Shown here: positions 13,155 through 57,129 of the stretch, one piece after another
Numbering within the stretch: the stretch's first letter is position 1
Layout of the letters: each line of letters opens with the position of its first letter
Assembly (NCBI GenBank): GCA_963575745.1
Contig: CAUYUJ010005002.1
Location: 954,979 to 1,018,978 of the forward strand
Direction of reading: 5' to 3'
Length of the DNA stretch: 64,000 bases
From: Prorocentrum cordatum
Taxonomy: Eukaryota > Sar > Dinophyceae > Prorocentrales > Prorocentraceae
Position numbers and translations under genes: made by a program
The notes under the pieces: model-generated
What the model saw: only the letters and a program-made list of their open reading frames with translations
What the model was told of the DNA's origin: nothing
Databases searched by the model: none

Positions 13155-13382
13155 TTGGGCCCGTCGACCGTCGGGGAGCGCCAAAACGCGTCAAAGGAGG
13201 GGAAGAGGGGCGACGAGAGGGCCCAAGAGACGTCCGAGAGGGCTCCAAGAGCACCCACAAGCGCTCCAAGAGAGCCCAAGACCGCCGCCCAAGAGCGTTC
13301 CAAGATGGCCCAACATAGCTTCAAGACAGCCAGGAGGGCCTCAAGACAGCCTAGAGGCCTTCAAAAGGAGTCCCACGAGGCC
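13155..13382 (-). repeat. Decamer block (CCAAGA/GGCC orientation), left of retrogene
   Basis: Words such as GCTCCAAGAG, GCCCAAGACC and CTCAAGACAGCC repeat at about 10-bp spacing. This is the reverse-strand form of the GGCC/CTTGG family. The block continues on the other side of the retrogene from 14866, which suggests that the gene was inserted into it. Confidence 0.75.
13363..13382 (+). repeat. Left target-site duplication of the retrogene
   Basis: AAAAGGAGTCCCACGAGGCC occurs here and identically at 14866-14885. The left copy ends exactly where the relict spliced leader begins. Perfect 20-bp direct repeats bracketing an SL-marked intronless gene are the signature of retroposition. The caveat is that the surrounding decamer satellite contains similar words. 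Confidence 0.8.
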
Positions 13383-13412
13383 TCCGTAGCAATTTCGCCA
13401 TTTGGGCTCAAG
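13383..13412 (+). other. Relict dinoflagellate spliced leader, partly duplicated
   Basis: The block starts TCCGTAGCAATTTC, matching the first 14 nt of DinoSL with two changes. It ends GCCATTTGGGCTCAAG, matching its last 16 nt with one change. The total is longer than the 22-nt leader because the GCCATTT segment appears twice. That is expected if a retroposed copy carrying an old SL was trans-spliced again and copied back, or from an internal duplication. Confidence 0.8.
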
Positions 13413-13503
13413 CGGGCTCGACCCCCCGCTACCTTCCTCTTCGGCCCCTGCCTTCGCGCGTCCGAGGAGCACTGTACCCGATACATATACGCATTGGTGC
13501 GCC

Positions 13504-14586
13504 ATGCCGGTGCGCACAGGGAAGAGGCTCGGGTGCTGCGCCTTGGCAGCCGCCGTGGCGAGCACTGGCTGCAGCGCCCTCGGCACTTGGCGTACGAGCC
13601 CCATGCACGAGTCCGTCGCGCAGCAGGACGCCACGGATCTGTTCGCGCACGGCCTGGTGACACCGGATGATTGGCAGGAGGAGATCCCCGTCATCACTGT
13701 CGAGACGCGCACGGACGAGACCAGCTACCCCGTCCCAGGAGTCCCTGGCGCGCGGTTCACAAACCTCGGCGCCGGCCAGGAGTGGCACGGCCTGTTCACG
13801 AAGCCCAAGCTCTTCAAGGAATGGCTGGACAAGCATCCCGACCCGAAGAAGATCATCGTCTTCGCGGATTCGGCCGACGTGTTGTTTGGCGGTTGCAGCA
13901 AGGAGCAGCTGATGGACAACTACAGGGCCACCGTGGCGAAGAGCGGGGGAGTGCCAGTGGTGATGGGAGCCGAGCTGGGCTTGGACCCCCCGCCGTCGGG
14001 CGCCTACACCGACATCCACACGCAGTTCGCGGACCGCCGCAAGAAAGTGCAGGAAATTATGGCCCTGGAGGACGCCTCCTATGGCGATGCCGCCATCTGC
14101 GAGATCAAGAGGTCGGACCCAAAGAGATGCTATGTGCCGTCGCAGCAGCAGGTGAAGGAGGGGCACTGGCCGTGCGCGGGCCCGTGCTCCTGGCCGCCCG
14201 CGCTGACGTTCCTGAACTCTGGCTTCATCATGGGCCCCGTGTGGGCGATGCGCGAGGTGGCGGCTGGCATGATAGAGCACGAGGAGCTTCCCATGGACGC
14301 CCCGTTCAGGAACAACTGGCACGACCAGGGGGCGGCGACTCTGTATATGGCCGCAAACCCGAACAAGTTGACGTTGGATTATACTGGGAGCATCGTGCTC
14401 AACATGCATCAGATGAAGCTGAACGAGAGCCTGGAGATTATGGGTGGCCTCTTCATCAACAAGGTCACCGGGGTGCCCCAGTGCTTCATCCACGCAAACG
14501 GCCCCGCGCTCTTCAAGCTCAACAGGTCCCTCATCGCCTACGCGAGCCTGCCACCTGGCGGTAGCATGCGCCTGCACGGGTGGTGA
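13504..14586 (+). CDS. PLOD/procollagen-type glycosyltransferase
   Basis: This is the best gene in the window, 360 residues in one open frame. ATG at 13504 is the first ATG after the relict SL. The family (procollagen galactosyl/glucosyltransferases and the glycosyltransferase part of PLOD lysyl hydroxylases) transfers sugars from UDP-sugars to hydroxylysine. Visible landmarks are a short basic then hydrophobic N-terminus (about residues 7-26, possible signal or anchor); IIVFADSADVLFGG near 118-131 with acidic D122 and D125; FLNSGFIMG near 236-244; WHDQGAATLYM near 272-282; LDYTGSIVLNMHQ near 291-303; and IHANGPALFKLN near 329-340. No hydroxylase domain follows. The N-terminus and family suggest the secretory pathway. 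The acceptor is unknown, since true collagen is not expected in an alga. The intact frame argues for recent insertion or selection. Confidence 0.88.
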   Translation: MPVRTGKRLGCCALAAAVASTGCSALGTWRTSPMHESVAQQDATDLFAHGLVTPDDWQEEIPVITVETRTDETSYPVPGVPGARFTNLGAGQEWHGLFTKPKLFKEWLDKHPDPKKIIVFADSADVLFGGCSKEQLMDNYRATVAKSGGVPVVMGAELGLDPPPSGAYTDIHTQFADRRKKVQEIMALEDASYGDAAICEIKRSDPKRCYVPSQQQVKEGHWPCAGPCSWPPALTFLNSGFIMGPVWAMREVAAGMIEHEELPMDAPFRNNWHDQGAATLYMAANPNKLTLDYTGSIVLNMHQMKLNESLEIMGGLFINKVTGVPQCFIHANGPALFKLNRSLIAYASLPPGGSMRLHGW

Positions 14587-14865
14587 GGCGCCCCTACGTG
14601 GCCGGCAGGCGGCCGACCCGAAGTTCTGTGAGCGCGCTCCAGTGGGGCTTGCCGAGAGGCGAGCGCCGCCTTGTTGCCGCCGAGGCGCTCTAGGTGGCCT
14701 TCGGATGTTCCGGACTGCATTTCTCCATGAGCACAGACTTTTATTCGAGGGTAGATTGTAGATCCAATGCGATCCCTCGTTAGTGGATTGTGTCGCTGTG
14801 GCACTCACAATGAGTTTCCCCGTGTTTTCCGGCACCCGCTTCTTACTGCTTTCAAATAACATGAA
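14587..14865 (+). other. 3' region of the retrogene
   Basis: This non-coding tail runs from the stop codon to the right direct repeat. There is no AATAAA, which is usual for dinoflagellates. The end is A-rich (CAAATAACATGAAAAAA), but no long poly(A) remains. Confidence 0.65.
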
Positions 14866-14885
14866 AAAAGGAGTCCCACGAGGCC
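14866..14885 (+). repeat. Right target-site duplication of the retrogene
   Basis: Identical to 13363-13382 over 20 bp. Decamer satellite sequence (CTCAGGAGG, then CCAAGA words) follows. Confidence 0.8.
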
Positions 14886-15240
14886 CTCAGGAGGCGAAAT
14901 GTTGAATTTTTTCGACGGGCCAAGACAAGCCCACGAGGCCACAGAAATCGACCCAAGACGGCCCAAGCAGCTCCCAAAGATGGCCCCAGGACGGCCCAAG
15001 AGAGTCCCAAGACGGCCCAAGGGCGCGGCAAGACGGCCCCACGAAGGCCCAGAAGGTCCCACATGGCTTCAAAAGAGGTCCAAGACGGCCCCAAGAGCCC
15101 TCCAAGGTGGCCCCAGCAAGGCCCCAACCCAGCCAAGAAGTCCCAAATGGGTCCCAGGACGGCCCGAGACGGCGTGAAGTGGCCCAAAAAGGCCCCAAGA
15201 GGACCCCAAAAGAGGCCCGGAGACTCTAGATTTTCGTGCG
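14886..15240 (-). repeat. Decamer block (CCAAGACGGC orientation)
   Basis: GCCCAAGACGGCCCAAGAG-type words repeat at about 10-bp spacing. This continues the block to the left of the retrogene. It ends in a less regular stretch with TAGATTTTCGTGCGGC. Confidence 0.85.
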
Positions 15241-26792: not shown

Positions 26793-28190
26793 AGTTCTCC
26801 TTTCTAAAAAGAGAATAAATAGACTTACCCCTCCCCCCCGGCGTTATCGCTACCCATTTTCGGGTATGTAAATCACATGCGATTCTGACCACATGTCCAT
26901 CCTAAATATGAAATCGCAATGTCCCAGGCCAGCCGGTATCCCCCCCCTGAGGCTCCCTTGTAAAAAACACTATGCGGTGACATTTTTTCCTCTAGTATAA
27001 CATTTGTTCACGAATCCCTTGCAACAAAACGGGACGAAGTGCACACGCGCGCGTCGTCGCGCGCATGCCGAAATCCTTCAAAAACCTTCGGTGCCGGAAG
27101 GATTTCGCAATCGAGTTTCCAAAACACACACAAAAAACACGGTTTCGTAACACTGATTTGCTAGAAAAGCTTCCGCGCGAGCTCATACGAAATCTTAATA
27201 AAAACCACTATGTCTTCAATCTTTTCACAACATGCTACCAAACGGGCGTCGCGCGCGCGCATGTCGAAATCTGTCGAACGCCCTTGCGCGTGTGCCGTCG
27301 CGAGAATCCTCTGCAAAAAATGGGACGAAGTGCAGACGCGCGCGTCGTCGCGCGCGTACGCCGAAATCCTTCAAAACCGATCGGTTTCGGACGGAATTCA
27401 AAATCGCGCGTCCAAAAAACCTACAAAAACACAAGGTTTCGCAACACGGATTTTCAACAAAAGCGTGCGTGCGCGCTCTTGCGGCGTCGTCGTCGTCGTC
27501 GTCGTCGTCGTCTTCGTCCTCCCTCCTCCCGCGTCGTCGTCGTCGCCTACGTCGTCCTGTGTCTTTCCTCGTGTTCGTCGTCGTCGTCCTCTTTGGCGTC
27601 GTGGTCGTTTCCGTCGTCGTTGTCGCCGTGGTCGTCCTTCCTCCTCCTCCCTCGTCGTCGTCGTCGTCCGTCGTCGGCGTCTCGTCGTCGTCCCTCCTAT
27701 TTCGTCGCCGTCGTCGTCGTCGTCGTTGTCGTCGTCGTCTCGTCGTCGTCTTCCCTCCTCCCTCGTCGTTGTCGTCGTCGGCGTCGCCGTCCTTCCTTTC
27801 TTCGTCGTTCGCGTCGTCGCCGTCCTCCCTCCTCCCTCGTTGTCGTTGTCGTCGTTGTCGTCGTTGTCGCCGTCGTCGTCCTCCCTCCTCCCTCGTCGTC
27901 GTCTTCGTTGGCGACGTCGTCGTCGTCTTCGTCGTCGTCGGCGTCGGCGTCGTCGTCTTCGTCGTCGTCGACGTCGGCGTCGTCGTCATCGCCGCCGTCG
28001 TCGTCGATGTCGTCATCGTCGTCGTCGGCCGTCTTACTTCTCCGGTCTTCTTGGGGCGCTCTTGAGACGCCCCAGAGGGCTCCAAGACGACCCCGGAGCG
28101 ACATCCGTGCTCGGTCCCGCATGGGTTTTGCAAACCAAGTTGCGGGTGGGTGGGTGGGATGATTGCGCGAGCAGTGGAGTTGACAATTTC
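26793..28190 (+). repeat. Hairpin composite repeat, copy 5 (forward, expanded)
   Basis: It starts with the imperfect hairpin TTCTCCTTTCTAAAAAGAGA. A leader with TGTAAATCACATGCGATTCT and GCCAGCCGGTATCC and two hairpin modules (26990-27480) follow. The GTCG segment is replaced by about 550 bp of (CGT)n. A short decamer patch (28040-28100) and a truncated D block (28115-28175) complete it. Confidence 0.78.
27483..28030 (+). repeat. Long (CGT/GTC)n tract
   Basis: About 550 bp of CGTCGTCGTCG with CTCC interruptions. It sits where other copies of the composite carry a short GTCG segment, so it looks like an in-situ expansion. Confidence 0.92.
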
Positions 28191-28204
28191 AAGTTCGGCA
28201 AGTG

Positions 28205-28722
28205 ATTAATTCTCCTTTCTAAAAAGAGAATAAACGCTACCCCCCCCCTGGCGTTATCAGTACTCTTTTCGGGTATGTAAATCAAACGTGATTCTGACCA
28301 CATGTCCATCCTAAATATGAAATCACAATGTCCCAGGCCAGCCGGTATCCCCCCCCGGAGGTTCCCTTTTTAAAAAACACTATGCGGTGACATTGTTTGT
28401 TCTAACATAGCACTTTTTCACGAATCCGTTGCAAAAAATGGGACGAAGTGCACACGCGCGCGTCGTCGCGCGCGCATGCCGAAATCCTTCGAAAACCTTC
28501 GGTGCTGGAAGGATTTCGCAATCGAGTTTCCAAAAACATGCAAAAACACACGGTTTCGCAACACTGATTTGCTAAACAAGCTTCCGCGCGAGCTCATACG
28601 AAATCTTAAGAAAACTATAGGTGTTTTCAAGATTTTCGCAAAATGCTATTAAACGGGCTTCGCGCGCGCGCATGTCGAAATCTGTCGAACGTCCTTGCGC
28701 GTGTGCCGTCGCGAGGGCGTAG
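28205..28722 (+). repeat. Hairpin composite repeat, copy 6 (forward, truncated)
   Basis: It repeats the TTCTCCTTTCTAAAAAGAGA hairpin and the leader of copy 5 with few changes. One GC hairpin module and part of another follow. It stops abruptly at about 28722 after GCCGTCGCGAGG. The close match to copy 5 suggests recent duplication. Confidence 0.8.
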
Positions 28723-46761: not shown

Positions 46762-46783
46762 TCCGTTGCCATTTTAGCTCAAG
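46762..46783 (+). other. Relict dinoflagellate spliced leader
   Basis: TCCGTTGCCATTTTAGCTC then AAG matches the 22-nt DinoSL at 20 of 22 positions, the first base being the variable one. It lies at the 5' boundary of the LINE, 120 bp before the ORF1 start. Upstream sequence is a CCT microsatellite. A chance match of this quality at exactly this place is unlikely. Confidence 0.85.
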
Positions 46784-46903
46784 TGATTCTTGAGCGGGCA
46801 GCCTCCCCTGAGAGGGCATTCTTGGGCGCGAAGGCGGACACTATTCGTGCCTTCATAGGAGGACCTGGGCCCCTCCTCCTGTCTTGCTTTCGCTTCCACA
46901 CCC

Positions 46904-48139
46904 ATGGCCACGGTCGATGCCGCCACGGTCTCGCCTGCGCGCCGCTCCCCAGCGTCGCCTTCTGCTGGTGTCATCCGCAGCTCCATGGACAAGGGCAAGA
47001 AGCTCGTCAAGCTCCATCGTCGTGTTCGTCCTCCTGGCTTTGGTGCTACTGGCGGCAGCTCTTCCCCTGCAGCCATCGCCCTGGACATGGACGACACCGA
47101 TGGCGAAATGGAGGTCTACCCTGAGCACATCTGCGTGATGGTTGCCGAGCAGCTCAGTGCGGAGACGGCCAAGTACCACTCCGCGCTCAACACGCACATC
47201 GGTGACTGCGTCACGTCCACCGTCAAGGCCGAGGCTACTACCATCCAGCAGTCCCTCGCCTCCAACTTGGACGAGTGCTTCAGCAAGTGCAAGGCCGACC
47301 TTGATGCGCTGCCCTCGAAGCTGGACGCCCAGATCGTTGCTGCCGTCACGCTGAAGATCGATGATGTCAGGCGCGAGCTCAACACCCGGTGCGACAGCCT
47401 CAAAGTGGAAATCATGCAGGTCGACAGCCGTGTGGATGAGCAAGACAAACTACTTCGTGAAATGCAGGAGCGGATCAAGCAGCTGCAGAGTGCCTTCGCC
47501 GTCGCCAACTCTGCGACGCCAGCTCCTCGTCCTGTTGCAGGCTCGGACACCTTCACGCGCGACACCGATGAGACGATCATCAAGGTCTTCGCGGGCAAGC
47601 TCGTCGCCAAGACCGCCGTCCACGAGGTGCTGGCCCCCTGGCTTGAGGAGTCCAGCATCACCACCGAGCAATGGGAGCTCACAGCTGCAGGCCCTCTCTC
47701 GAAGTACTTCACCATCAAGCTCAAGGGCGCCGTCGGCCTGGCCACGCGACGGGTCCAGAAGCTGCTGGCCTCGCTGCGCGTTGGCAACACGTGGCGCGCG
47801 TTCAACGTGGACGCGCACGCTGGCGGCCAGACCAGGCTACGCCTGTCCCATGACAAGAATGCGAAGCATATCAAGACGGAGGTCATCGGCAGGAAGATGC
47901 GCAACAAGTTCGTGGAGCTGTACGGTGCTAATCAGCGCGTCTTCTTCGATCGGGATCGTGGCGGGCTGTCGCTGGGCTGGGGCGCGTTGTGCGAGCTCGA
48001 GTGCTTCCCCTGCCGTGAACCGACTCGTGTGTTCTGGAGCCCAGGCACGATCAACAAGTACTCGGTGCCGAAGGACAAGCTCGTCGAGGCGATCAAGGAT
48101 ATCATCGAACCTGAGCGTGAGCCTGAGTGGTGCCTTTAG
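46904..48139 (+). CDS. LINE ORF1 protein (coiled coil plus RNA-binding-like domain)
   Basis: 411 residues in one intact frame. The ATG at 46904 has a good context (ACCCATGGCC) and is the first long-frame ATG after the relict leader. Residues 1-60 are basic and Ser/Pro rich. Residues about 75-190 are rich in Leu, Asp, Glu and Lys with heptad spacing (for example LKVEIMQVDSRVDEQDKLL), a likely coiled coil for self-association. Residues about 213-300 (ETIIKVFAGKL, YFTIKLKGA, RVQKLLASLRV) have an alternating beta/alpha look like the RRM of LINE ORF1 proteins. The C-terminus ends PEREPEWCL. By analogy it would package element RNA. No zinc knuckle is seen. ORF2 starts just downstream. The role is inferred from position and layout. 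Confidence 0.75.
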   Translation: MATVDAATVSPARRSPASPSAGVIRSSMDKGKKLVKLHRRVRPPGFGATGGSSSPAAIALDMDDTDGEMEVYPEHICVMVAEQLSAETAKYHSALNTHIGDCVTSTVKAEATTIQQSLASNLDECFSKCKADLDALPSKLDAQIVAAVTLKIDDVRRELNTRCDSLKVEIMQVDSRVDEQDKLLREMQERIKQLQSAFAVANSATPAPRPVAGSDTFTRDTDETIIKVFAGKLVAKTAVHEVLAPWLEESSITTEQWELTAAGPLSKYFTIKLKGAVGLATRRVQKLLASLRVGNTWRAFNVDAHAGGQTRLRLSHDKNAKHIKTEVIGRKMRNKFVELYGANQRVFFDRDRGGLSLGWGALCELECFPCREPTRVFWSPGTINKYSVPKDKLVEAIKDIIEPEREPEWCL

Positions 48140-48159
48140 CCGTTTCGCTGCTCTGGTTG

Positions 48160-49347
48160 GACGCTCGACCGTCCAATTTTTGTGCGACGCCACTGCAGCC
48201 AGTAGCCCTCGATTCGTCTCGTGGAACACGAGAGCCCTCCTCCAATTTGAAGGTGCCCACGTTGATGTTAAATTGGGGCGCCTCCAGAGGCTCCGACTGG
48301 GCTCTTCTGTCACCGCCCTCCAGGAGGCCCACCAGTGCGAGGCCCAACTAGCTGCCTTCCTACGCCGTGCGTTGCCCGAGGCTGCTATGTTTTCCATCTT
48401 TTGTGGCGCTGACCGTGCGGGGCGGATGCGCGGCGGCGTCGCCATTGTCGTTCCTGGTATTTTGTCGCGAGGCGCCTCCTCGCCGACGCTGCCTGCTGGC
48501 GTCACCTCTTCCTTGCAAGTGCTCGCCCCTGGTCGCGTCATCCGTGTCGCTCTGCAAAATCAGGACACCACTTCAATTCATTACAGCATTCGCAACCATG
48601 GTTTATCTTCGGGACAAGTAAGCGATGTGCGCAGTCAAATAACTCGGGACCGGGCCCTTTTCGGAATCCTCGCCTGAATCTGCGCTGCGAGTTGTGCGTG
48701 GCGATTTCAACTTCGCGGGCGAGGAAAAACTGAGCTTCTCGCGGCCATTGGAGGCTCAGGCCCAGCGGGCGGCCCGCCCCTCGCACGCACAAGCGCCGCG
48801 CTGGGCGGCTGCTCTCGACCCCCTTGTCGAGGTCACCCCTCTTGAGGCCGCCCACTTCGATGCGCCATGCAACGCTGTTGCTGCCGTTGACAGGTTCTGG
48901 CGCGGCGGGCCTGGCTGGGTGCTCGCCCAAGTGCATTCGCAGGCTTATGTTGAAGGGTCTCCGGAGGTCCTCCATCGGGCGAAGATCAGTGACCACGCCG
49001 CCTTGTGCGTCTCCTTTGGTCACCGTAAGCCTCAAGAGCCCACTGGGCGCCCCACCCCTAAACATCTTTGCCAAACAAAAGGATATAAACAGTTACTGGC
49101 CGCCTTTGTTGAAGCTGAATCTACGGACTTGCAAGCGATGTGTCCGCCGAGAAGGCTCGAGCGATACAAGGAGTTGCTGCAGGAAGCGAGCAGGGAAACA
49201 AGGGGTGTCTCGATGTTTCGCCGCCCGACGGACCCGCGCGCGCCGCTGCTTCTGGCTCGCTCTATAGCGCGCGCTATTTGGCGCCAGGACGTGCCGACCG
49301 CCTCTCGTCTTCTTCGTTCGCATGCTGCCGCTGCTGATTTTATTTAA
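48160..49347 (+). pseudogene. LINE ORF2 endonuclease domain (frameshifted)
   Basis: The first frame gives FVSWNTRALL (about 48210-48240), SVTALQEAH (about 48308-48335, catalytic-type Glu) and RMRGGVAIVVPG (about 48425-48460). A shift before 48694 is needed to reach VVRGDFNFAGEE, and this frame continues through AAVDRFWRGG to HRAKISDHAALCVSF (about 48974-49018). These correspond in order to the N, E, GDFN and SDH motifs of APE-type endonucleases. The linker continues to a stop at 49347. The copy is disabled, but the motif set is complete. Confidence 0.85.
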
Positions 49348-49404
49348 TCGCTTCGCTCATTCCGCCGGCCCATACAGTCTCATGTCTGCCGTTTGCCCGA
49401 GGGC

Positions 49405-50150
49405 CTGGTGTCAATGCGGCGCTTTGGGGGTTCCTGGGGCCGCTTGGGGGACTCCTGGGGCGCTCGGGGGGGCATTTGGGGGGCCTCCTGGGGCCGCTTG
49501 GGGGACTCTTGGGGGCCTCCTGAGGGCCCCGTGGGGGCCTCTTGGGGCCTCTTAGGGGCCTCGTAGGGGCTTCTTAGGGCCGAGGGCTCGAAATGTTGTT
49601 TCGTGTTCCCTCTCTGGGGCCCCTTTGGGGGCGTTCTTGGGGCCCTCTTGGACCGTTTTGGAGGCTTCTTGGGCCGTCTTCGAGCCCTCTTGGGCCATCT
49701 TGGGGCCCTCTTGGGTGCCTCTTGGGCCCTCTTGGGGCGATCTTGGGGGCCTCTGGGCCGTCTTGGGGCGTCGGGAACCGAAAAGGTGGAAGCTCCAAAA
49801 TCTCTCAAAAACCTAAGGAAAAACAATGAATTTTGCCTCCGGGGGCCCTCTTGGGAGTGCTCTTGGAGGCCTCTTGGGGCGTCTGGGGGCTATCTTGGGC
49901 GTCTTGGAGCGATCTTGTGGCATGTCGGACCCCTCGTGTACCATCTTGGGGGCCTCTTGGGGGCCTCTTGGCCTTTCTTGGGGCTCTCGGGGACGTCTCG
50001 GAGCCCTGTTGGTGCGCTCATGGAGCGCTCGGGGGGGCCCGGCCGGGACCCGGCCGGGACCCGGCCGGGACCCGGCCGGGGACCGGCCGGGACCTGGTCG
50101 GGGTACTTTTCGTCCGGGGACCCCCAGGGGCCGCCCCGCGCGCGCGAACT
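49405..50150 (+). repeat. Decamer block interrupting LINE ORF2
   Basis: GGGGCCTCTTGGGGCC-type words run on both sides of the core GGAACCGAAAAGGTGGAAGC and CTCTCAAAAACCTAAGG (49773-49825). The right end is a run of CCGGGACCCGG units (50035-50100) and GCCGCCCCGCGCGCG. It separates the endonuclease from the RT, so it arrived after or with the decay of the LINE. Confidence 0.85.
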
Positions 50151-50159
50151 AGAAAATTG

Positions 50160-51445
50160 TTAACCAGTTACCGGAGATCTTAGCACGCCTCTGGCCCGTT
50201 GGGCCGGCGAATTTGCGCGGAGGGCTCGGGGGTCGTGCTCGTCCACCCTGCTGCCTTCCAGCGCTGGCCCAACGAGGTGCAACTGAAGGCGTCGGACCTC
50301 GATCTCGCCGCTGCTCGGTCTCGCCTCGAACGCGCTGAGGGAGGGGGTGCTCGGCATAAAGAACGTCAGGTGCTTCGGGCTATTGACGGGAGGGCCAGGG
50401 TCTCGGCGCCGTTCGCCCGCCGTCGTACTCTTCGAGCCGTCGTCGTCCGTGGTCAGAGCTTTTCAGGTCTGCAAGATCGTCGCGAAGCTTTGGTCTCTCA
50501 TTGGGGCCCTGTCTTTGCTCGTCAACCCTGGGCCGCCAAAGCTGCCAACGCGTATTGCGACCGCTTCGTTCAGACCGTCGACTTTTCCGATTGCCCGCCG
50601 CCGTCGTTCGCGCTGTTGAAGAGAGTTGCACTTCGTGACAGTGATTCTGCTCCTGGCGTGGACCGCCTCTGATGCGCCGCGTGGCTTGCTCATCCGTTTG
50701 GCCTTCTTACACTGCATGGCGCTCTCTGGTGGATGATGGAGGGGAATGGGATATACTCGGCTGAGAATAACACCTCGCAGGCCTTTCTGCCGAAGGGCAC
50801 TTTCGATTCTGACACGCGGGAGGGAGGATGTGAACGGAAGGCGTCTGCTGTTCGTGTGCTCGGCCTGCGCAGCACTAGCATCAAGTTGCTCACGGCCACG
50901 GTTAACGTTGCTTTTTTTGCAAGCCGCTTGCTCGTTTTGTTCCACCAGACCAGAGGGGGTTCATGAAGGGGGGGAATTTTTGCCAGAACCTGGCGGGCGT
51001 GGGCGCTCTGTCTCGCGTGCACTCGGCCCGGCCCGAAGCTGATCACCGCTGCCCGCTGCTGTGCGACTATGGCCGGGCATTTCCGAGCCTTAACCAGGAG
51101 TTCGTGCTATCGGTACTGCGCAAGATGGGGTTCCCTTCCCAGCTCCTCTCTTTCGCGCCGATCCTCTACAAGGGTATCGCGGGGGTCGTCTCCGTCCAGG
51201 GCTCGCTGATGCACGCTTTTTGGATTCGCTCGGGCATTATTCAGGGCTGTGCACTTTCGGGGTCGCTGTTCGCCGCCGCCCTGTCGCCAGCTCTTCGTGA
51301 CCTCTGCCGTTCTTTCGAGGTTCCCCGACGTGGTATCAAACGCGCCTGTGCTGATAATCTCGGCGGTGCCATCGATGATCTGCGTCTTTTGTTGCCGCTG
51401 CACCGGGCGATGAAGATCGTGGAAGTGACGGTAACCGACGGCTGA
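50160..51445 (+). pseudogene. LINE ORF2 reverse transcriptase domain
   Basis: The linker at 50199-50672 carries REALVSHWGPVF and ends SDSAPGVDRL, the usual entry to the RT domain, followed by a stop. The next segment (CAAWLAHPFGLLTLHGALWW, then FLPKGTFDS) needs frame changes. From 50963 one frame gives LLCDYGRAFPSLNQEF (motif A, Asp near 51065), WIRSGIIQGCALSGSLF (motif B, near 51227) and RACADNLG (motif C, near 51347). Motif C reads ADN where active enzymes have ADD. That loss, the stops and the frameshifts indicate a dead enzyme. Confidence 0.85.
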
Positions 51446-52290
51446 AAGCCTCTAAGTGTGTTCTGTCTCCTGTCTCGGGCCCCTTCACCGTGATTCCGGA
51501 TTTCTTGAAGACGTTCATCCCTGAATGGTGTGACCTCTGGGTGGAGTCCAAGCTCATTTACCTGGGCCTATGGATCGGGCCTGCCACGGTTCTTGCTGAT
51601 TCCTGGTCACTTCCGCGGGAGAAGTTCATGGCGCGAGCGTCTGCGGTGGGTGCTGGGAGCACGCCCGCCTTGTCGTCTGCTGTTTTAGTCAATGCTCGCT
51701 GCGCGCCTGCGTTGAGCTACGTCATGCAGTTCCTTCCTCCGCCAGCTGACCTCCGCGCTGCTGGGCGCGGAGCTCTTGCGCAGGATTTTCGGCTGCCGCT
51801 GGGAGCTTATCGAGGCCGGGACTGGGCTCAGCTGAAAAACTGCACGGGCCCAACGTTTGCCCGCTCGAGGTTTTGCGCGCCGCGGCCAGGGCTCGCATGG
51901 CGACCGCGCCTATTCCTGGGCACAGAAAGGTTTTCGATTTCCTGGTGCGCCAGACCGACACGCCCCAGTCTCGTGAACTCGATCAGTGTCGCCTTACCGT
52001 TCTTCCTGCTGGCCGTCGGTATCCCCCTCATTGGCGGTGCCCCTATTTCGCCGAGATGCTTTTTGAGGCGGAGCCCAGCGCTGACGGCACTCTTCCTGCC
52101 ACCGCGGCTGCTGCCTGCCGAGCCGCTCCGCGCAAGCACCAGGGTGCGGCCAAGCTCACGTGCCTGTCTCCCCTCCCCTCATCCGCCCTTGAAGTTCACT
52201 ACCAGCAGCGTCTTCTGAAGTGGTGGCCTGGGCGTAGAGAGCGCATCATGAATGTCGATTGGGGGTCCATCCGCGCGGCCCTGCTGCCCC
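51446..52290 (+). pseudogene. LINE ORF2 C-terminal region
   Basis: One frame (51490-51860) carries LIYLGLWIGP and SLPREKFMARA, then ALSYVMQFLPPP, as expected downstream of RT motif C. A shift near 51870 continues with RKVFDFLVRQTDTP, QRLLKWWPGRRERI and DWGSIRAALL, ending at a run of 20 C (52287-52306). The pieces are colinear with the RT. Confidence 0.75.
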
Positions 52291-52306
52291 CCCCCCCCCC
52301 CCCCCC
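52287..52306. repeat. Poly(C) tract, 20 nt
   Basis: An uninterrupted C run at the end of the recognisable ORF2 sequence. Confidence 0.93.
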
Positions 52307-52551
52307 ATCGCCGTGCTCGAAGAAACTCATGTCGCTCACCATGTTTGTCACTCCCTTCGTTCTTTGCCCCCCTCCACCCCTCTGACCCTGCGCCTCCCCT
52401 CCGCCCTGCGCCTCCCCTCTACCACCCTCGAACGCTCGCGCGCCCTTGCAGCCCGCGGGACCTTGCCTTGACGTGGCCCATGTCGCCGCGCCCATGTGGC
52501 CCTCTTCAGGGCCTAGTGGGGAGGGGGTGCGTGGCGATGTTACTCTGGCCT

Positions 52552-56545: not shown

Positions 56546-56624
56546 AGGGGGCCACATGCGAACCCTACCCCTACCCCCCACGATTTCTGAGGGGCGTAGG
56601 GGTAGGGCTCGCATGTGGCCCCCT
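56546..56624. repeat. Perfectly placed 34-bp inverted repeat (hairpin)
   Basis: The arms at 56546-56579 and 56591-56624 start AGGGGGCCACATGCGA and, reading inwards, carry CCCTACCCCTAC. They differ at only two or three positions and enclose about 11 bp. It could form a long stem in DNA or RNA. Confidence 0.93.
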
Positions 56625-56629
56625 AAATA

Positions 56630-57081: not shown

Positions 57082-57085
57082 AAAA

Positions 57086-57117
<32 letters not shown>

Positions 57118-57129
57118 AAAAAAAAAAAA
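57082..57129 (+). repeat. Poly(A) tract, 48 nt with one G
   Basis: The only long A run in the window. It may be the 3' end of a retroposed transcript read on the plus strand, but no source gene or flanking direct repeat was found. Confidence 0.95.

Follow-up and report, generated by a model that had tools for sequence, protein, structure and literature searches.

A probable spliced-leader retrogene with both insertion boundaries preserved in Prorocentrum cordatum

An intact glycosyltransferase-like gene of Prorocentrum cordatum lies between two identical 20-bp repeats, with the first base of a spliced-leader (SL) relict at the exact boundary on one side, a run of As on the other, and no strong terminal repeat. 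We consider it highly likely that a trans-spliced, full-length, SL-bearing glycosyltransferase mRNA was inserted here into a satellite by target-primed reverse transcription of the LINE type. SL-tagged retrogenes are well known, and this locus is a further member of the class with unusually complete boundaries. An earlier note on this DNA had assigned it to that class, and retroposition of SL-bearing mRNAs in dinoflagellates is indeed documented in the reviewed literature (excerpts of PMC6050394). The note's retroposition interpretation is largely upheld: if an SL-bearing mRNA was retroposed, the SL at the duplication edge, the unbroken frame and the opposite A-run are all accounted for. The object class being familiar, the worthwhile part is the complete boundaries and what they tell of the copying machinery. 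The locus records the copying process itself, with SL base 1 and the A-run at opposite edges and the 20-bp duplication around both.

The window is the whole stretch of DNA that was analysed, 64 kb long. Its GC content is 59.9% (49.8-69.5% in 2-kb bins); the average for the P. cordatum genome is 59.7% (excerpts of PMC10666404). The features of the locus, in window coordinates, are as follows.

13200..13362, no strand: left flank and target sequence, a 10/11-bp satellite in degenerate form, CCAAGACGGC-like (tandem rows 13212-13273 and 13319-13364)
13363..13382, + strand: left target-site duplication, AAAAGGAGTCCCACGAGGCC (exact match to 14866-14885)
13383..13412, + strand: DinoSL relict, 30 nt, TCCGTAGCAATTTCGCCATTTGGGCTCAAG, beginning at SL base 1 (local alignment score against a null)
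13413..13503, + strand: remainder of the 5' UTR (no ATG before 13504)
13504..14586, + strand: intact single-exon gene, 360 aa, with a PLOD-type (LH3-like) glycosyltransferase domain (open frame, Pfam, family profile)
14587..14863, + strand: 3' UTR, presumably copied from the mRNA (between stop codon and A-run)
14864..14869, + strand: A-run of six As, two residual tail bases plus the first four of the right duplication, an ambiguous split
14866..14885, + strand: right target-site duplication, AAAAGGAGTCCCACGAGGCC (exact match to the left copy)
14886..15220, no strand: right flank, continuation of the left-flank satellite (tandem repeat listing)

Spliced leader and coding sequence

DinoSL has the sequence DCCGUAGCCAUUUUGGCUCAAG (excerpts of PMC6050394). 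The relict starts at the base directly after the left duplication, without a gap, and the claim that the left copy abuts a degenerate DinoSL holds: the alignment score of the relict is 35 for a tandem SL and 27 for a single one, while the maxima among 3,000 random 48-mers, generated by a first-order Markov model of the window, were 23 and 19, respectively. Lying upstream of a coding sequence in genomic DNA, it carries the mark of DinoSL-tagged retrogenes. Read by eye (the gap placement of the program was different), it fits two tandem SLs carrying a 7-nt deletion and three substitutions; a single SL fits as well, given one substitution and an insertion of 8 nt. The second SL of the tandem fit has the CCATTTTGGCTCAAG form, which has likewise been reported as a relict (excerpts of PMC12014239). 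Two tandem SLs would mean that the parent was itself already a retrogene; such a second round of retroposition is possible, and a single SL with an insertion takes fewer events. An ungapped scan of the window for the DinoSL 21-mer with three mismatches missed the relict, and a scan with the 15-base SL end found it with one mismatch.

AG dinucleotides in the 5' UTR, as possible SL acceptors, end at 13389, 13412, 13466 and 13469; a transcript spliced at the first of these would begin with the SL joined to CAATTTCG, and one spliced at the second with the SL joined to CGGGCTCG. Changes number 3 in 30 positions of the SL against 0 in 40 positions of the duplications (Fisher p 0.074), or 1 in 22 on the single-SL fit (p 0.35), a weak contrast. 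Part of the SL decay may be older than the insertion.

The first ATG of the insert (13504) is the start of the gene, and the frame stays open over 360 codons to 14586. The protein matches Pfam GT_PLOD (PF25342) at 29.4 bits (gathering cut-off 27, E 5.9e-07). In the structure search the window protein alone gave no LH3 chain match at E up to 1; the profile of its family (A1, 15 aligned members) matches chain R699 and LH3 chains, with a best LH3 E of 3.2e-10. D122 and D125, which we take to be the catalytic residues, are present in the family alignment. From these profile matches, the gene product is probably a glycosyltransferase.

Fourteen protein relatives were found, from sources jgi or lgn (longest contig of each, 1.0-1.7 kb), and no relatives were found in viral contigs. 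The best, P0002, is 88% identical across all 360 residues. Since this full-length alignment has no gaps, there is no intron in the frame, and the intronless 360-codon gene of the earlier note is confirmed. Invariant alignment columns include the window copy and are uninformative on its decay, so the next three relatives (two of them similar to one another) were used for comparison. Where these are unanimous, 7 of the differences between the two proteins side with the window copy and 2 with P0002. As far as these alignments reach, the window protein shows no excess change at conserved sites and no decay relative to its 88% relative. The differences may be largely older than the insertion, and they do not date it.

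These results bear on whether the copy is in use. The insertion could be real and the copy a recent, dead processed pseudogene, its frame open just from youth. That reading concerns use and not origin, is compatible with LINE-type retroposition of an SL-bearing mRNA, and is one that we hold to be somewhat doubtful yet worth serious weight. The two duplications are identical, as expected of a recent copy, and none of the 15 protein matches carries a P. cordatum label, so that no parent came to light among them; the parent may have been lost, the gene set may be incomplete, or the search may not have covered the records. Against this, the SL relict is changed, yet the 360 codons are without a lesion; the 45 differences to P0002 are concentrated in residues 1-60 (27, with 9 in residues 121-360), conserved sites being retained; and third-position GC of the gene is 0.867, although such protein-level patterns may largely predate the insertion. 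Continued use of the copy would fit the protein comparison without decay, and to this extent the earlier suggestion of a young or functional copy stands, in part only.

Duplication, priming site and satellite target

The perfect 20-bp duplication described earlier is present as two exact copies of AAAAGGAGTCCCACGAGGCC, separated by 1,483 bases. These are its only occurrences in the 64-kb window with up to three mismatches allowed (chance mean 0.02); no third copy was found there. The match is not extendable to the left, where C precedes the left copy and A the right copy, or to the right (T versus C). The A-rich 3' edge of the earlier note is real as an A-run, but it is just AAAAAA, with four of the six As within the right repeat. 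The duplication is therefore 16-20 bp long and the tail 2-6 As.

Duplications made by LTR integrases are 4-6 bp long, and those made by LINEs through target-primed reverse transcription roughly 7-20 bp. The duplication here is 20 bp, or 16 bp if the As are tail; it starts in As and stands beside the A-run, which argues for LINE target priming and not for an LTR integrase, a mechanistic conclusion that goes beyond the earlier note. The coding frame has no intron, and comparison of the insert ends showed no long terminal repeat. The L1 endonuclease consensus is TTTT/AA, and the nick site on the bottom strand, TTTT/GA, is one base off it, this being a single site. Among the points against the LINE reading are this off-consensus base, the short tail (six As at the 3' edge, four of them shared with the duplication), the degenerate SL beside identical duplications, and a weak direct match of the insert ends, equalled by 3.6% of 500 shuffles. 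The inverted match of the ends was equalled by 7.7% of 2,000 shuffles, and neither match is long; a DNA transposon with inverted ends was rejected on this comparison.

The events could have run as follows. The source message would be a trans-spliced, polyadenylated mRNA whose 5' end is SL base 1, and the target the 10/11-bp satellite. An endonuclease, probably from a LINE, would cut the bottom strand at CTCCTTTT/GAAGG, and the exposed Ts would pair with the A tail of the mRNA. Reverse transcription would then cover the whole message up to the first base of the SL, and with a second nick 20 bp off, repair would double AAAAGGAGTCCCACGAGGCC.

Alternatively, the mRNA could have been packaged and copied in the virus-like particle of a Ty1/copia-like LTR element and inserted by its integrase, which we judge quite unlikely. 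No LTR or chimeric element sequence was recognised by eye at the copy, and the duplication is 20 bp long instead of 4-6 bp; the weak direct match of the ends would be compatible with an LTR element. In its favour, a 2018 review, terming the mediating element in dinoflagellates unknown, prefers LTR Ty1/copia for its high expression (excerpts of PMC6050394), and LTR-mediated retrocopies are known in plants and some animals (excerpts of PMC5408686). For mammalian retrogenes, poly(A) ends and L1-type duplications at L1-type cleavage sites were the grounds for assignment to L1, and LTR elements failed to produce such structures in the assay cited (excerpts of PMC3747384).

A still less credible reading is that there is no insertion scar, the 20-mer being a satellite unit that flanks an old gene by chance or was moved by satellite recombination. 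Both copies do sit in the same satellite, whose family (D1) is represented to the left and right of the insert, and an 11-nt part of the duplication (CCCACGAGGCC) is found again at 14930-14940. The satellite of the earlier note is thus present at both flanks, as a degenerate 10/11-bp repeat and not the strict decamer that it described. Satellites being repetitive by nature, the chance of an exact downstream match was measured in the same satellite type, at 1,847 positions in nine tracts, leaving out 19 positions at the retrogene site. A match of at least 17 nt occurred at none of these positions, and one of 16 nt at a single position. The note had named the 20-mer being a common satellite unit as grounds for giving up the insertion; within the window it is not one. 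Across the window as a whole, a downstream match of at least 20 nt was present at 16 of 1,500 random positions, which speaks for the reading without an insertion, but none of the 16 falls in the satellite of the retrogene flanks: 12 belong to tandem arrays, either simple or larger, and 4 to the repeated words of one block (21.6 and 26.9-27.3 kb). A satellite unit would also leave both junctions unaccounted for, the left copy stopping where SL base 1 begins and the right copy opening in the A-run. A chance repeat was set aside on the uniqueness of the 20-mer in the window and on the satellite controls.

Least likely of all is capture of a free cDNA by end-joining without target-primed synthesis, which suits the short tail and requires no element endonuclease, but needs the filling of 20-nt overhangs at a staggered break, since joining at a blunt break yields no 20-bp duplication; like the LTR element, it was set aside on the comparisons of duplication and ends.

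An SL-independent scan for an A-run followed by a word repeated upstream printed eight candidates, five on the + and three on the - strand, with the retrogene locus among them; we read the other seven as lying mostly in larger repeated blocks. Periodicity across the joined flanks was a weak test: at lag 11, 8 of 11 positions matched, against 2/11 and 4/11 at the two filled boundaries, and at lag 21 the joined flanks gave 7/21, against 1/21 and 1/21. An undisturbed satellite stretch reaches 16/21 at lag 21, above the 7/21 of the joined flanks. With periodicity this weak, an empty site consisting of the joined satellite flanks is at most plausible.

Other repeats were seen in the window. Several exact words of 13-35 nt recur in 26807-28440 at spacings of 1,409-1,415 bases, as would follow from the tandem duplication of a stretch of about 1.4 kb. 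An inverted repeat at 56546-56625 (AGGGGGCCACATGCGA...), with arms of about 34 bases and two differences by eye, resembles a small foldback element. A poly(A)-like run of 48 bases with a single G (57082-57129, the G at 57105) lies downstream of a pyrimidine-rich stretch; the A-run scan printed no flanking repeat for it.

A LINE in the same window and DinoSL in other contigs

At a distance of 32 kb from the retrogene, the window holds a LINE with an L1-like reverse transcriptase and a full-length SL relict of its own. This copy spans 46762-52400, with satellite at about 49.4-50.1 kb between its parts.

46762..46783, + strand: second DinoSL relict, 22 nt, TCCGTTGCCATTTTAGCTCAAG, two changes; 5' end of the LINE copy and not part of the retrogene
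46904..48139, + strand: LINE ORF1-like protein of 411 aa; across 83% of its length it shares 81% identity with a protein under the name Prorocentrum cordatum
48141..49344, + strand: beginning of LINE ORF2, damaged and split over two frames, with motifs that by eye resemble an endonuclease (translation)
50906..51442, + strand: reverse transcriptase fragment (PF00078, E 7e-08; nearest PDB sequence the LINE-1 ORF2 protein 8sxt, E 2.3e-07)

The P. cordatum protein is the sole match of the ORF1-like protein, for which Pfam gives just sub-threshold coiled-coil matches; no Pfam endonuclease was found in the LINE. Because this LINE is broken, it is itself excluded as the source of the machinery; judged by its sequence, it is a candidate for the type of machinery that made the retrogene. 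Its SL relict points to a LINE transcript in this lineage having undergone trans-splicing and then been copied back up to the SL. As a duplication of its own, a match of 17-19 nt, whose end shifts between about 52711 and 52713 with the start base chosen, was considered and rejected: both sides are CCT-rich runs, and nothing is drawn from it.

DinoSL sequences were also seen in contigs other than the window. Duplications at the SL in three of them measure 12 nt (L001, AT-rich and inside another ORF), 8 nt (L002) and 5 nt (L003); none exceeds 12 nt, which speaks neither for nor against the retroposition reading. L001 (IMGVR_UViG_3300045993_001077) is a very AT-rich contig of a viral collection and has on its - strand, from about 2913 to 1790, a 254-aa gene of 49% GC whose adjoining genes have 21% and 13% GC. 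Upstream of its ATG are two exact DinoSL copies, one ending 45 nt away and the other 147 nt further up. The latter continues into GGCG-AAAAAGTAA-CGCC (- strand, about 2913), which by eye forms a small perfect hairpin; the stretch before this SL also resembles a hairpin and contains SL-like pieces. The gene has the appearance of an SL-bearing host mRNA taken up by a large DNA virus, the viral status being the label of the collection alone. Its protein has no Pfam match above cut-off and no match among phage records, and no further copy was seen among the candidates in viral contigs.

The last 17 DinoSL bases occur exactly in two further contigs of viral collections (L004, 1240-1256; L005, 6504-6520), possibly by chance. 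Exact DinoSL 21-mers are found in two contigs filed under Dehalococcoidia. In L003 (JAKUNN010000063.1, 4334-4354) GT follows the SL, the arrangement of an SL RNA gene, and the bin is perhaps contaminated by a dinoflagellate. In L002 (CAJXDJ010000191.1, 32-52) a TCA repeat lies upstream of the SL, and the same contig has genes that look bacterial by eye.

Mediating element and known systems

The locus bears on the question of which element mediates mRNA recycling in dinoflagellates; as a single locus it does not reach to the genome-wide driver. The scale of the question is given by SL relicts marking more than a fifth of genes (22-23%) in two Symbiodinium genomes, with about 20-26% of transcripts tagged elsewhere (excerpts of PMC6050394). 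For P. minimum, the former name of P. cordatum (excerpts of PMC10666404), 477 retrogenes are reported in a paper that leaves the choice between LTR and non-LTR mediators open (excerpts of PMC12014239). In a limited literature search, no duplication flanking an SL-retrogene turned up in earlier work: 'target site' has no mention in PMC12014239, PMC8045281 and PMC10235124 (main texts), 'target site duplication' has none in PMC11453091, and the Amoebophrya genome paper uses the latter term of intronic elements and not of SL-retrogenes.

We would give an even chance to a broader proposal, namely that Prorocentrum LINEs with trans-spliced transcripts copy both themselves and host SL-bearing mRNAs to the first base, and that duplications like this one are the rule. 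If true, the SL at each copy would signal that target-primed synthesis had run full length, and the element driving dinoflagellate mRNA recycling would be settled, contrary to the published preference for LTR elements. Were the pattern genome-wide, the element type, the nick preference and the rate of full-length copying would become directly measurable.

The protein has its counterpart in the PLOD/LH3 domain, through the GT_PLOD match and, by way of the family profile, the LH3 structures; it differs in being a stand-alone domain without the hydroxylase part. With DinoSL-tagged dinoflagellate retrogenes the locus shares an SL relict upstream of an intact gene, and it differs from them in keeping both insertion boundaries. 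In Symbiodinium, LINEs were argued to have integrated dinoRNAV from proximity and abundance (excerpts of PMC10235124). The likeness to that case is an SL relict with a LINE reverse transcriptase nearby, at about 17 kb there and 32 kb here; at the window locus, in contrast, the duplication itself is observed. Mammalian L1 retrogenes and processed pseudogenes (excerpts of PMC3747384) are intronless like the window copy, end in a 3' A-run and have a duplication of L1 length that starts in As. The window copy differs from these in its short tail, its dinoflagellate host and the spliced leader that marks its 5' end, by which the full length of the retrogene can be read directly.
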